Origin: Algoriphagus sp. | Lineage (GTDB): Bacteria; Bacteroidota; Bacteroidia; Cytophagales; Cyclobacteriaceae | Assembly (NCBI GenBank): GCA_023653075.1 | Contig: JAMNXQ010000016.1 | Location: 1 to 42,160 of the forward strand | Length of the DNA stretch: 42,160 nt | Direction of reading: 5' to 3' | Part shown: in pieces, positions 22,176 to 25,184 of the stretch | How positions within the stretch are numbered: position 1 is the stretch's first letter | Layout of the letters: each line of letters begins with the position of its first letter | Program-made: the position numbers and the translations under genes | The notes under the pieces: generated by a model | What the model was told of the DNA's origin: nothing | Databases searched by the model: none | The model's input: the letters and a program-made list of their open reading frames with translations, nothing else

Positions 22176-23756
22176 ATGAGTTTAACAGCCGAAATCAACA
22201 AGCGTAGAACCTTTGCCATTATTGCTCACCCCGATGCAGGGAAAACGACCCTGACCGAAAAATTACTACTTTTTGGGGGTGCCATACAGACGGCTGGAGC
22301 AGTCAAATCGAATAAGATCGATACGGCGACCAAGTCTGACTGGATGGAAATTGAAAAGCAGAGAGGGATTTCTGTGGCCACTTCAGTGATGGGCTTTGAG
22401 TACAAGGACATTAAAATCAACCTACTCGATACTCCTGGTCACCAGGATTTTGCGGAAGATACCTACCGCACCCTGACTGCTGTGGATTCGGTGGTCATGG
22501 TAATTGACTGTGTGAAAGGGGTCGAAATTCAAACTGAAAAGTTGATGGAGGTATGCCGTATGCGCAATACTCCTGTGATTTGCTTTATCAATAAATTGGA
22601 CCGTGAGGGTAGAGATCCCTACGATCTTCTGGATGAGGTAGAATCCAAGTTGACTATCAAAGTACGCCCACTTTCCTGGCCCATAGGGATGGGAAAGGGA
22701 TTTAAAGGGGTGTACAACCTCTATGAGAAAAAGCTAAACCTATTCACCCCTTCTCAGCGGAAGTTGAGTGACGACCGGCAGGTGTTTGAAAATCTAGAAG
22801 ATCCGCAGTTGGATGCCTTGATTGGTCCAGGCAATGCAAAGCAGCTTCGGGAAGATGTGGATTTGATTGAAGGAGTATATCCTGACTTTGATGTTCAGGA
22901 TTATTTGGATGCAAAAATCGCCCCGGTATTTTTTGGTTCGGCCGTGAACAATTTTGGGGTCAATGAAATGTTGGACACTTTTATCCAGATTGCTCCGATC
23001 CCACAAAGTCGAGAGACGGACCTTCGAAAAGTGGCTCCTGATGAATCCAAGTTTTCAGGCTTTGTATTTAAAATCCATGCCAACATGGATCCCAACCACC
23101 GCAACCGAATTGCCTTTTTGCGGATTTGTTCCGGAAAGTTTGAGCGCAACAAGCCCTACAATCACGTACGTGGACCGAAGCCTCTTCGCTTTTCCAATGT
23201 GACCCAGTTTATGGCTCAGGACAAAGAAATCATTGACGAGGCCTTCCCCGGAGATATTGTCGGCTTATACGATACCGGTAATCTCAAGATTGGGGACACA
23301 CTTACGGAGGGTGAAAACTTAGTTTTCACAGGAATCCCTAGCTTCTCGCCCGAGATTTTTCGAGAGGTAGTCAACAAAGATGCGATGAAGACCAAGCAAT
23401 TGGAGAAAGGGCTCAAGCAATTGATGGAGGAAGGAGTGGCTCAACTCTTTACTTTCGAGATGGGCGCCCGAAAAGTGGTGGGTACCGTGGGGCAACTGCA
23501 GTTTGAAGTAATCCAATTTCGTTTAAAAAACGAATACAATGCCACGGTGGAGTTTCATCCGATGAACCTGTACAAGGCCTGCTGGATCAGCTGTTCGGAT
23601 AAGAAGCAATTGGATGAGTTTGTTCGTTCCAAAAACCGCTACATTGCGCGAGACAAGGACAACAAGTTGGTCTTTATGGCCGAGTCCAAATCCTGGCTAC
23701 AGATGGTGCAGGACAATTATCCAGAAATTGAATTCCACTTTACCTCGGAGTTTTAA
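22176..23756 (+). CDS. prfC: Peptide chain release factor 3
   Basis: 526 residues, full length (E. coli RF3 is 529). This GTPase recycles RF1/RF2 from the ribosome after peptide release. It has G1 AHPDAGKTT (residues 17-25), G3 DTPGHQDF, G4 NKLD, and the RF3-type domains II-III with [21 protein letters not shown]. The last 36 bp (23721-23756, eleven codons [11 protein letters not shown] plus stop) are repeated at 25119-25154, so the current 3' end was probably rebuilt by an insertion event (see findings). The gene lies after its own -7 element and terminator-bounded start, and is followed by a 12-bp-stem terminator at 23805-23834. Confidence 0.97.
23721..23756 (+). repeat. Copy 1 of the 36-bp prfC 3'-end repeat (in prfC)
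   Basis: This is the last eleven sense codons and stop of prfC. It matches 25119-25154 at 34 of 36 positions. The two differences (CCA/CCG and ATT/ATC) are synonymous. Start-to-start distance is 1398 bp. Confidence 0.95.
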
Positions 23757-23804
23757 AGCTATTTATCTGCCACTGGTTCTAAACCCACGGAGGATTCTTT
23801 TCTT

Positions 23805-23834
23805 AAGTCCTGTTTCTCTCGAAGCAGGACTTTT
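23805..23834 (+). terminator. Intrinsic terminator downstream of prfC, inside the inserted module
   Basis: AAGTCCTGTTTC and GAAGCAGGACTT form a 12-bp stem with one T-G pair and a TCTC loop, followed by T residues. It would end prfC transcription before the ATPase gene. Confidence 0.8.
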
Positions 23835-23864
23835 AAATCAATATGCCTAATGATTTGTATTAAA

Positions 23865-23921
23865 GATTAAAAATATGGAAAAATATGGAATCAGATTCCA
23901 TATTTTTCCATATTTTTAATC
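23865..23921. repeat. Perfect 57-nt palindrome directly abutting the ATPase start codon
   Basis: Two perfect 27-nt arms flank a 3-nt centre (CAG). Each arm carries two tandem copies of AAAAATATGG (10-nt period) on one strand and their complements on the other. The right arm ends at base 23921 and the ATG of the ATPase begins at 23922. On RNA it would be a very stable hairpin hiding the ribosome-binding region; on DNA it is a symmetric site with one-turn spacing. Both readings suggest regulation of the ATPase, or a processing site at an element end. Confidence 0.95.
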
Positions 23922-25079
23922 ATGATTCCTAGGAAAGCAAGCGAGAAGCTTCAAGAATTGGCAAGCTATTTCAAAGTAGTAGCAGTAGTTGGCCCGCGTC
24001 AATCGGGGAAAACTACGTTAGTTCGGTCCATATTCCCTCAAAAACCTTATGTGTCTTTAGAAGATCCTGATCAAAGGAGGTTTGCATTGGAGGATGCAAG
24101 AGGATTTTTGAGTAAATATACCGAAGGGGCTATTTTGGATGAAGTGCAGCGTACTCCCGAGCTTTTTTCTTACTTGCAAGGAGTAGTAGATTCAAGTCGT
24201 CAAACTGGACAATTTATCCTTACTGGATCAAACAATTTCCTTTTGCAGCAGTCCATTACTCAAAGTCTTGCAGGAAGAGTAGGGTATTTGCAGCTGCTGC
24301 CTTTTTCGTTGACTGAACGTTATCCAGAACTAGCCGAAATCCCTTCAGAAGATGAATTAATGATTAAAGGGGGCTATCCACCGCTAGTTGAGCCTGGTAT
24401 TCCTACAGATTTGTGGTTTCCAAATTACCTGCGAACGTATATTGAGCGAGATGTAAGGCAAGTCAAAAATATTACTGATTTAATAGTTTTTGAGCGCTTT
24501 ATTCATTTGCTGGCAGGAAGAGTAGGTCAGGAATTAAACATGACTGCATTAGGAAATGAAGTTGGAGTAACTACCAAGACCATTCAATCTTGGATTGGCA
24601 TTTTAGAAAGTAGTTTTTTGATTTATTTAGTAAGACCCCATTTTCAAAACTTCAATAAGGTTATCGTCAAGCGTCCTAAAATCTATTTTTTAGACACTGG
24701 ATTGGTAAGTTTTCTATTGGGAATCAAAACAGTTGCTCAGTTGAATTTTCATCCCCTGCGTGGCGCGCTGTTTGAAAACTTGGTGGTTTCCGAATTGATT
24801 AAGGAAAGAACGAATCAAGCAGAAGAAATTAATTTGTTTTTTTGGAGAGACAAGACCGGACATGAAATCGACGTGCTGGTCGATGAGGGGTTAGACTTAT
24901 TTCCTGTTGAGATCAAATCAGGTAAGACAATCAATTCCGATTACTTCAAAAATCTGAGATTCTGGATGAATTTGAGTCAGCAAAAAAAAGGGATGGTTTT
25001 GTATACAGGGGATCAAACCCAAACTAGATCAGAGGGAATTTCAGTTAAAAATTGGAAAGAGTTTCTTTTTGGAAGATAA
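23922..25079 (+). CDS. AAA+ ATPase of the DUF4143 family with nuclease-like C-terminal motif
   Basis: 385 residues. The N-terminal ATPase has Walker A GPRQSGKTT (24-32), Walker B AILDEV (70-75) and a sensor-1 TGSNN (101-105). A DUF4143 domain follows from about residue 175, with a winged-helix-like piece (MTALGNEVGVTTKTIQSWI). At the C-terminus, D317 in GHEIDVLVDEG and E330-x-K332 in PVEIKSGK fit the spacing of a PD-(D/E)XK nuclease core. The role of such proteins is unknown; some sit in mobile or defence contexts. The gene looks more A/T-rich than its neighbours by eye. It lies between the two copies of the prfC end and has no obvious partner gene. The ATG right after the palindrome is the only start that keeps the RKASEKLQELASYFK lead. 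Confidence 0.93.
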   Translation: MIPRKASEKLQELASYFKVVAVVGPRQSGKTTLVRSIFPQKPYVSLEDPDQRRFALEDARGFLSKYTEGAILDEVQRTPELFSYLQGVVDSSRQTGQFILTGSNNFLLQQSITQSLAGRVGYLQLLPFSLTERYPELAEIPSEDELMIKGGYPPLVEPGIPTDLWFPNYLRTYIERDVRQVKNITDLIVFERFIHLLAGRVGQELNMTALGNEVGVTTKTIQSWIGILESSFLIYLVRPHFQNFNKVIVKRPKIYFLDTGLVSFLLGIKTVAQLNFHPLRGALFENLVVSELIKERTNQAEEINLFFWRDKTGHEIDVLVDEGLDLFPVEIKSGKTINSDYFKNLRFWMNLSQQKKGMVLYTGDQTQTRSEGISVKNWKEFLFGR

Positions 25080-25118
25080 AATCAATCTTTCTTCACTCCA
25101 AACAGTACATGTCAAAAC

Positions 25119-25154
25119 CCGGAAATCGAATTCCACTTTACCTCGGAGTTTTAA
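25119..25154 (+). repeat. Copy 2 of the 36-bp prfC 3'-end repeat (displaced gene end)
   Basis: It encodes the same [11 protein letters not shown] and stop as the end of prfC, but is preceded by no prfC sequence. It is followed 2 nt later by a terminator hairpin, as expected for the original prfC end. Confidence 0.93.
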
Positions 25155-25156
25155 GT

Positions 25157-25184
25157 AAAAAGGCAGCGTATGCTGCCTTTTTTG
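25157..25184 (+). terminator. Intrinsic terminator after the displaced prfC end
   Basis: GGCAGC and GCTGCC pair around GTAT, with an A run on the left and six T residues on the right. It lies 3 nt beyond the copied prfC stop codon, so it is probably the ancestral prfC terminator now serving the ATPase gene. Confidence 0.85.

Follow-up and report, generated by a model that had tools for sequence, protein, structure and literature searches.

The locus analysed here lies in a 42,160-nt stretch of an Algoriphagus sp. contig (JAMNXQ010000016.1; this whole stretch is referred to below as the window) and consists of prfC, a gene of the DUF4143 ATPase family directly behind it, and a second copy of the prfC 3' end behind that gene. 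The prfC gene (22176..23756, plus strand), which encodes peptide chain release factor 3, is an open reading frame (ORF) of 526 aa with the Pfam domains GTP_EFTU and RF3_C. Its final 36 nt, in frame and including the stop codon (23721..23756, plus strand), recur as a direct repeat at 25119-25154, 1398 bp away; 34 of the 36 positions are identical, and both mismatches are third-base changes (CCA/CCG and ATT/ATC). In our judgement, the probability that such a match arises by chance within 42 kb is plainly very small. Weaker homology to the prfC tail extends leftward to about 25096 (60 nt, 80%), and the second copy as a whole (25096..25154, plus strand) is partly degraded, with only its last part, 25119-25154, well preserved. 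A terminator-like hairpin, read from the sequence, follows prfC on the inserted side (23805..23832, plus strand). Behind it lies a perfect palindrome (23865..23921) with 28-nt arms (23865-23892 and 23894-23921), a 1-nt centre and the core GGAAAAATNNGGAATNNNATTCCNNATTTTTCC, which ends at the ATG of the DUF4143 gene (23922..25079, plus strand); another terminator hairpin, with a T-run, is located behind the downstream copy (25160..25183, plus strand). The DUF4143 gene is the sole sizeable ORF between the copies, and neither the ORF list nor the Pfam search revealed an integrase ORF in this interval, as had been remarked in an earlier reading of the letters alone (the sequence-only reading).

We searched 72 Algoriphagus genomes, one per species, for the ATPase and for prfC, and read 67 prfC loci with flanks of 228-2198 nt, 57 of which contain no ATPase gene. 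DUF4143 genes with at least 78% identity are present in ten of the 72 genomes, all at prfC loci (in G015, by inference), and eight of the ten are located directly behind prfC. At the G058 locus, the ATPase gene lies beyond an extra tail and some 3 kb of other genes; in G015, the contig carrying this gene begins 490 bp before it, and its connection with prfC is read from an interrupted terminator. Near the two G015 contig ends inside the prfC terminator (L067, in G015:C37, and L066, at about 322-340, in G015:C48), the 18-bp GGCATTGGCGTTAACTTA and its reverse complement are found; these paired copies resemble the ends of an unseen insertion element. A further prfC tail is present right behind the ATPase stop codon in all ten loci, which confirms the duplication noticed in the window, and an assembly artefact was rejected because ten genomes share the layout. 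The right copies start at positions 3-7 of the final 90 nt of prfC in 9 of the 10 loci; in G079, the two copies extend over 123 bp, with the terminator inside this stretch, and are 99.2% identical. Among the 57 prfC loci without the ATPase, 55 have a single gene end, the exceptions being G059, with two clear extra tails, and G075, with a weak match; the sole match in G024 lies on the opposite strand and was left uncounted.

The sequence-only reading had taken the interval for an insertion, and the comparison with empty relatives bears this out, the second copy being joined to the flank that is native to them. Positions 1963-2097 of the locus in the window genome (G000) match positions 565-700 of that in G090 at 85%, in agreement with the proposal that the second copy represents the original prfC end. 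A terminator directly adjoins prfC in G011 (L039) and G090 (L085), the arrangement that had been suggested as a check, and the hairpin at 25160-25183 is likely the original prfC terminator. Insertion at prfC is well supported by these comparisons. A search of the whole genomes with the 90-nt tail of the window yielded 82 matches in 67 of the 72 genomes, that is, one in each plus 15 extra, 14 of which are located at prfC loci (again, G015 by inference); the remaining one is a weak 36-nt match elsewhere in G016. A weak match in G018 lies about 1.9 kb from prfC, beyond the flank read in the locus survey. The search is not exhaustive, as the diverged copy in G072 was missed, and the match in G084 is unchecked against the prfC gene. 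Apart from the weak G016 match, all tail copies detected in the 72 genomes with this query, which can miss diverged copies, lie within about 5 kb of prfC.

The gene tails also bear on which copy is foreign. Of the 74 codons that differ over the ten prfC loci, 45 do so synonymously (p = 2e-4 against 0.40, the expectation taken for tail copies diverging in place), and when G058, which has its copy in common with G064, is omitted, 38 of 62 do (p = 6e-4); the loci do not provide independent codons, the window copy enters the count without its degraded left part, and the final codons of G058 and G064, probably non-homologous, work against a synonymous excess. Non-synonymous changes are present in six of the ten downstream copies, so the downstream copies are not maintained as coding sequence. 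The argument of the sequence-only reading that synonymous-only differences suggest an imported copy is weak at the window locus itself, with its two changes, but holds across the set. Its further claim, that one copy is foreign, has to be modified, because which copy is foreign varies between loci and is settled only in part. The in-gene tail of the window looks native: it is nearly identical to those of the nearest empty relatives, G088 and G090, and the final 36 nt are identical. The right copy in G034 is a mosaic, with a left half nearest to other lineages (its own gene ranks 32nd of 67) and a right half nearest to its own gene (rank 1); this is the only clear mosaic, as the right copies of G010, G071 and G079 are nearest to their own genes in the left half also. 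The right copies of G058 and G064 resemble each other and other lineages more than the adjoining gene. Such a mixture would be expected if recombination took place at different points of the tail repeat.

The ATPase gene is more similar than prfC between several distant species. The fourfold-site identity is 0.84 for the ATPase vs 0.40 for prfC in the G058/G064 pair (dS of 0.25 vs 2.9), 0.71 vs 0.45 in G010/G058 and 0.54 vs 0.39 in G000/G015, which implies that the gene moves sideways into one site. The filled loci are scattered on the prfC tree, with at least 6 changes when scored against ten palindrome-bearing empty loci, 46 of the 66 rows falling in neither of these groups; the count of six is no fewer than that obtained in 148 of 500 shuffles. 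Movement between lineages into a single prfC site is shown by these comparisons.

The palindrome is more widespread than the ATPase gene. Its core, GGAAAAATNNGGAATNNNATTCCNNATTTTTCC, is present with at most 2 mismatches in 21 of the 72 genomes, 20 of which have it at the prfC locus (G015 by inference), and ten prfC loci without the ATPase carry an orphan palindrome (G005, G007, G012, G026, G035, G062, G066, G078, G082 and G016, the last with two mismatches in the core). In G077, one core match is located about 4.7 kb beyond prfC and another on a different contig. The arms vary mostly symmetrically (ATATGG/CCATAT, TTCGG/CCGAA, GTGG/CCAC), with exceptions such as G012 and G034; this covariation suggests selection on the palindrome, which, placed at the start codon, is probably a binding site of the DUF4143 protein, that is, an operator or a recognition site. 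Another DUF4143 branch (L015-L018, L020, L021, L083) has no palindrome and instead carries several tandem copies of GTACAATTTCAAA immediately before the gene, likely a second kind of operator or recognition site. At L027 (G054:C18), an array of repeats with the inverted motif CCATGAAAAATA...TATTTTTCATGG is present on both sides of the DUF4143 gene, upstream of it and about 330-1140 nt downstream.

The window protein consists of 385 residues, with an AAA+ ATPase domain, a middle helical part and a C-terminal domain of the predicted PD-(D/E)XK fold. It matches the Pfam families DUF4143 (160.8 bits) and AAA_14 (99.6 bits), and no others at E <= 0.001; at this threshold, neither a LAGLIDADG nor a GIY-YIG endonuclease domain was found in the gene. 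The PADLOC profile PDC-S01 matches over both domains (347 bits, E = 3e-104), NCBIfam and PHROGs assign no family, and a profile search of the PDB sequences gave 0 matches at E <= 0.01. AlphaFold2 models were obtained with pLDDT of 90.3 and 94.8, the C-terminal domain being modelled separately because the fold search with the whole protein mainly matched the ATPase part. In its modelled fold and its candidate catalytic residues, E315-x-D317...E330-x-K332, invariant among 36 aligned sequences, the C-terminal domain conforms to the PD-(D/E)XK superfamily. Relatives of the protein are encoded in 13 of 50,697 phage records (E <= 1e-5), and the window genome itself carries 2 further DUF4143 genes of other branches (G000:C10:10140-11273 and G000:C12:29556-30482). 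In the literature, PDC-S01 is ranked fourth by frequency among prokaryotic defence systems, with roughly 40,000 loci (9,986 archaeal and 29,494 bacterial), and is described as an ATPase domain fused to the PD-(D/E)XK superfamily, while most candidates of its kind still await validation (PMC12988326); arCOG03166 is described as an AAA+ ATPase fused to HTH (helix-turn-helix) and RecB nuclease domains (PMC4158269) and is probably the same family as DUF4143/PDC-S01.

Some other DUF4143 genes are flanked by copied host gene ends, which the sequence-only reading had suggested looking for. Within Algoriphagus, the 3' end of a DUF4260 gene is found on both sides of a DUF4143 gene (L014), hisIE has a 254-bp copy at 90.5% with the ATPase in the opposite orientation (L138), and the copied end of an HTH regulator (L197, L199) accompanies a distant DUF4143 branch, with about 28-29% identity to the window protein. 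The HTH regulator has a long C-tract before its duplicated 3' end (L197, 1005-1299; L199, 2835-3152); in L197 a different frame is needed to read the tail, and this is a candidate phase-variable gene. Beyond the genus, copied ends belong to the gene for a 165-residue protein in Flavobacterium alvei (L238; 137 bp at 90.5%), a histidine-kinase gene in a Parafilimonas metagenome-assembled genome (MAG), where the second tail-like stretch precedes a response-regulator-like gene (L254), a gene for a 251-residue protein in a Fibrobacteres MAG (L279) and an integrase gene on a Sphingomonas plasmid (L338; 191 bp at 74%, with the DUF4143 ORF in the other orientation). The plasmid case is the only one among 12 records read out of 388 matching ones; the other 11 show no clear copy, with weaker or short repeats at L334, L336, L339 and L340.

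Such repeats are enriched at DUF4143 genes. In the genus-wide and order-level set, flanking direct repeats are present at 16 of 113 DUF4143 loci vs 4 of 98 control genes, the latter taken from twenty 20-kb stretches picked at round coordinates; on inspection, 12 of the 16 are gene ends, 8 of them of prfC, and the count misses G010 (ORF calling) and G015 (contig break), both in the ten-locus set. In a named set (118 DUF4143 loci found, 80 kept, 72 with enough flank), a repeat starts within 60 nt of the stop codon at 14 of 72 DUF4143 loci, compared with 2 of the 148 further genes of these loci (Fisher p = 4e-6). Outside Algoriphagus, 6 of 63 DUF4143 loci have a stop-adjacent repeat (p = 0.01), of which L238, L254 and L279 are claimed as gene ends; the repeats at L236, L272 and L280, ambiguous in their relation to a gene end, are not so claimed and yet enter the stop-repeat statistics, and L244 is ambiguous as well. 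The flanking repeats at L019, L027, L192 and L207 proved on inspection not to be gene ends and are not counted as cases. At L192, a 70-bp repeat (79%) abuts both the start (1394-1463) and the stop (2598-2667) of the DUF4143 gene and resembles a copied upstream site. DUF4143 genes located between two gene starts are rarer than controls (5 of 111 vs 18 of 89; p = 6e-4). In seven Dyadobacter genomes (L224-L230), a 65-67% identical DUF4143 gene lies 77-87 nt behind an ORF of 213-214 residues without a visible gene-end copy; judging from the C-terminal residues, the upstream ORF seems to be the same gene in most of them.

For the F. alvei host gene, the empty site can be followed through Flavobacterium. 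The gene is present at E <= 1e-60 in 58 of 299 genomes, and among 29 loci examined, F. alvei alone has the insert and the second tail, both missing from all 28 others. The flank that follows the F. alvei right copy is found within about 1.5 kb behind the gene in 25 of these 28 loci and directly behind it in L304. Among near relatives with alignable tails, six of seven are closer to the right copy, with one tie (L307, L310 and L312, 85-91% identical, were left out of this count because their tails misalign without gaps), whereas all 28 loci together are evenly divided between the two tails (11 vs 11, 6 ties). Six of the seven differing codons between the two F. alvei tails are synonymous (p = 0.019). 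Because the in-gene copy is the one under selection, the comparison with near relatives suggests, short of proof, that the in-gene copy of F. alvei came with the element.

Several prfC loci contain arrays. With gene names read from the sequences, the order in G058 is a large surface protein gene, a tail, the ATPase gene and a tail; that in G079 is the ATPase gene, a tail, a metallophosphoesterase-like gene and a tail; G059 has two tails and no ATPase. G058 and G064 share 2.25 kb at 94%, beginning inside the tail and including a further gene, and G058 and G010 share 1.04 kb at 93%, also beginning in the tail, with a different gene. Since the shared stretches start in it, the tail also acts as a boundary at which adjacent DNA recombines. 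The ORF lists of the prfC loci of six relatives, inspected by eye, contain no recognisable integrase.

We lean, slightly, towards the view that the palindrome and the DUF4143 gene form a single-gene, homing-like mobile element that arrives with a copy of the 3' end of its target. The DUF4143 protein would cut or nick the target near the 3' end of the host gene, and homologous recombination with element-bearing DNA would copy the element in, with the gene-end copy serving as one homology arm; the tail of the gene would stay intact, allowing the host gene to survive, and the other tail would be left behind and decay. That the DUF4143 protein drives the insertion is what we infer. In favour of this reading we count the second prfC tail at all ten ATPase-bearing loci, the sideways movement of the ATPase, the single gene ends of nearly all empty loci in both genera, the enrichment of stop-adjacent repeats, the synonymous excess, and the invariant motif and predicted fold of the C-terminal domain. 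Several observations weigh against it. The foreign copy is not the same one at all loci, and the length of the duplicated stretch varies from about 60 to 254 bp. Pairs such as G000/G079 (fourfold-site identity of 0.31 for the ATPase vs 0.37 for prfC) show no excess likeness of the ATPase. The tail copies behind other genes in G058, G059 and G079 can have been left by, or travel with, other cargo; the 2.25-kb stretch shared by G058 and G064 fits plain homologous transfer; and the arrays in general speak for homologous recombination and make it less likely that the ATPase has a set part in each event. Outside Algoriphagus, 57 of the 63 DUF4143 loci have no repeat near the stop codon, and a protein-level search (at least 28 bits) detected a clear cognate copy for 9 of 141 host tails, with 54 of 19,740 non-cognate pairs reaching the same score, which were taken, unchecked, as prfC tails against other prfC copies. 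PADLOC lists the family, by profile name only, as a phage-defence candidate, and the mobility is read from genome comparison. Most loci have no recognisable copy, and gene-end copying is not claimed for the DUF4143 family as a whole.

Under a different explanation, the DUF4143 gene is passive cargo: a useful gene, for example, one of the defence candidate PDC-S01, would spread by homologous recombination at a prfC hot spot, where repeated tails let any cassette loop out and reinsert, and the protein would take no part in the movement. The tail copies carried by other genes at prfC in G058, G059 and G079, the stretches of 1.04 kb (with a different gene) and 2.25 kb that G058 shares with G010 and G064, respectively, and the strong PDC-S01 match are all as this explanation would have it. 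We nevertheless consider it rather unlikely, given that unrelated host genes show the layout too, DUF4143 being what they have in common, that it is seldom present at control genes of these loci (2 of 148), and that the G079 stretch is 99% identical over 123 bp, so that a new insertion seems to generate the copy itself. The near-identical copies in G079 and G071 and the terminator inside the duplicated stretch could be expected of an element akin to a transposon whose target duplications are unusually long (about 60-250 bp) and which carries no gene end, as could the varying length of the repeats and the repeats at L207 and L192 that are not gene ends. This alternative is improbable in view of the right copies of G058 and G064, which are unlike the adjoining gene, the mosaic in G034 and the synonymous excess; moreover, the gene contains only AAA_14 and DUF4143, and the palindrome is present on one side only. 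A simple short target duplication was rejected, as the copies are not always identical and their length varies. Nor does the element conform to an insertion sequence or transposon: it has no transposase family, a palindrome on one side in place of terminal inverted repeats, and repeats of about 60-254 bp in place of a short constant target duplication.

The layout is, in outline, that of attL and attR, and the common left boundary of the right copies, the restored gene and the tandem arrays would suit remnants of larger islands whose integrase used the prfC tail for attachment and was lost or acts in trans. However, tail copies more than about 5 kb from prfC are confined to the weak G016 match in the survey with the window tail, which can miss diverged copies, the ORF lists of the six relatives contain no recognised integrase, and the DUF4143 family recurs at other targets, all of which makes such an origin quite improbable. 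An old tandem duplication, inherited vertically with occasional gene conversion, would explain the one conserved left boundary in the prfC group, and conversion could keep the copies alike; it is contradicted by the divergence of the ATPase relative to prfC, the ATPase being more alike than prfC in distant species, and, with the patchy spread and the empty sister genomes, we regard it as highly improbable.

The element favoured here shares features with known mobile elements of other kinds. Integrative elements with tRNA-type attachment sites restore the 3' end of the gene into which they insert, and, like these, the prfC insertion restores the gene end, is flanked by direct repeats and forms tandem arrays; unlike them, it has no integrase between the copies, consists of one gene (about 1.4 kb in the window) and has varying, decaying or mosaic repeats. 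Freestanding homing endonuclease genes of phages are single nuclease genes that move laterally into the same site, and the prfC element similarly comprises a single putative nuclease gene that apparently moves laterally into one site; we know of no regular carried gene-end copy in the phage genes, which belong to other nuclease families. No report of gene-end insertion with a copied end in bacteria was found among the titles and abstract starts of the literature on DUF4143 and on COG1373, which we take to be the DUF4143/PDC-S01 ATPase family, and further literature searches listed none.

The closest analogue that we found in print is a group of mobile ORFs in fungal mitochondria that encode an endonuclease and bring along the C-terminus of a foreign gene, described, in the portion of PMC3630166 considered here, for atp6, atp9, cox2 and nad3 in Glomus and atp6 in Allomyces. 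As in that account, a nuclease gene (putative here) is located behind a host gene, a copy of the 3' end is present on both sides, the in-frame one keeping the gene going, the DNA differences are largely synonymous and several host genes are targeted. The fungal ORFs (PMC3630166) bring an in-frame fused end that keeps the gene going, the displaced native end lying behind the ORF; a foreign in-frame copy of this type is suggested here for F. alvei only and is not seen in the window. The enzymes differ as well: LAGLIDADG or GIY-YIG in organelle DNA, compared with an AAA+ protein with a predicted PD-(D/E)XK fold, accompanied by a palindrome, in bacterial chromosomes and plasmids. The DUF4143 element would thus work alike without being a member of the fungal group. 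As to PDC-S01, the family to which the window protein belongs, the excerpts of PMC12988326 and PMC4158269 at hand treat it as putative defence and do not mention gene-end insertion.

A broader proposal, which we put forward tentatively and deem somewhat more likely wrong than right, is that the DUF4143/PDC-S01 family consists in good part of self-spreading, homing-type elements, with branches adapted to the 3' ends of particular host genes and carrying a spare end, and with an ATP-driven PD-(D/E)XK enzyme unlike the fungal mitochondrial ones. If the reading outlined here is correct, it would provide a testable role for a very common family without a functional assignment and would explain the tendency of DUF4143 ATPase genes to be located at the 3' ends of other genes. 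Homing with a carried gene end, a process described in fungal mitochondria in the part of PMC3630166 considered, would then exist also in bacteria, with an unrelated enzyme, and counts of the PDC-S01 defence candidate may, in part, be counts of selfish elements.

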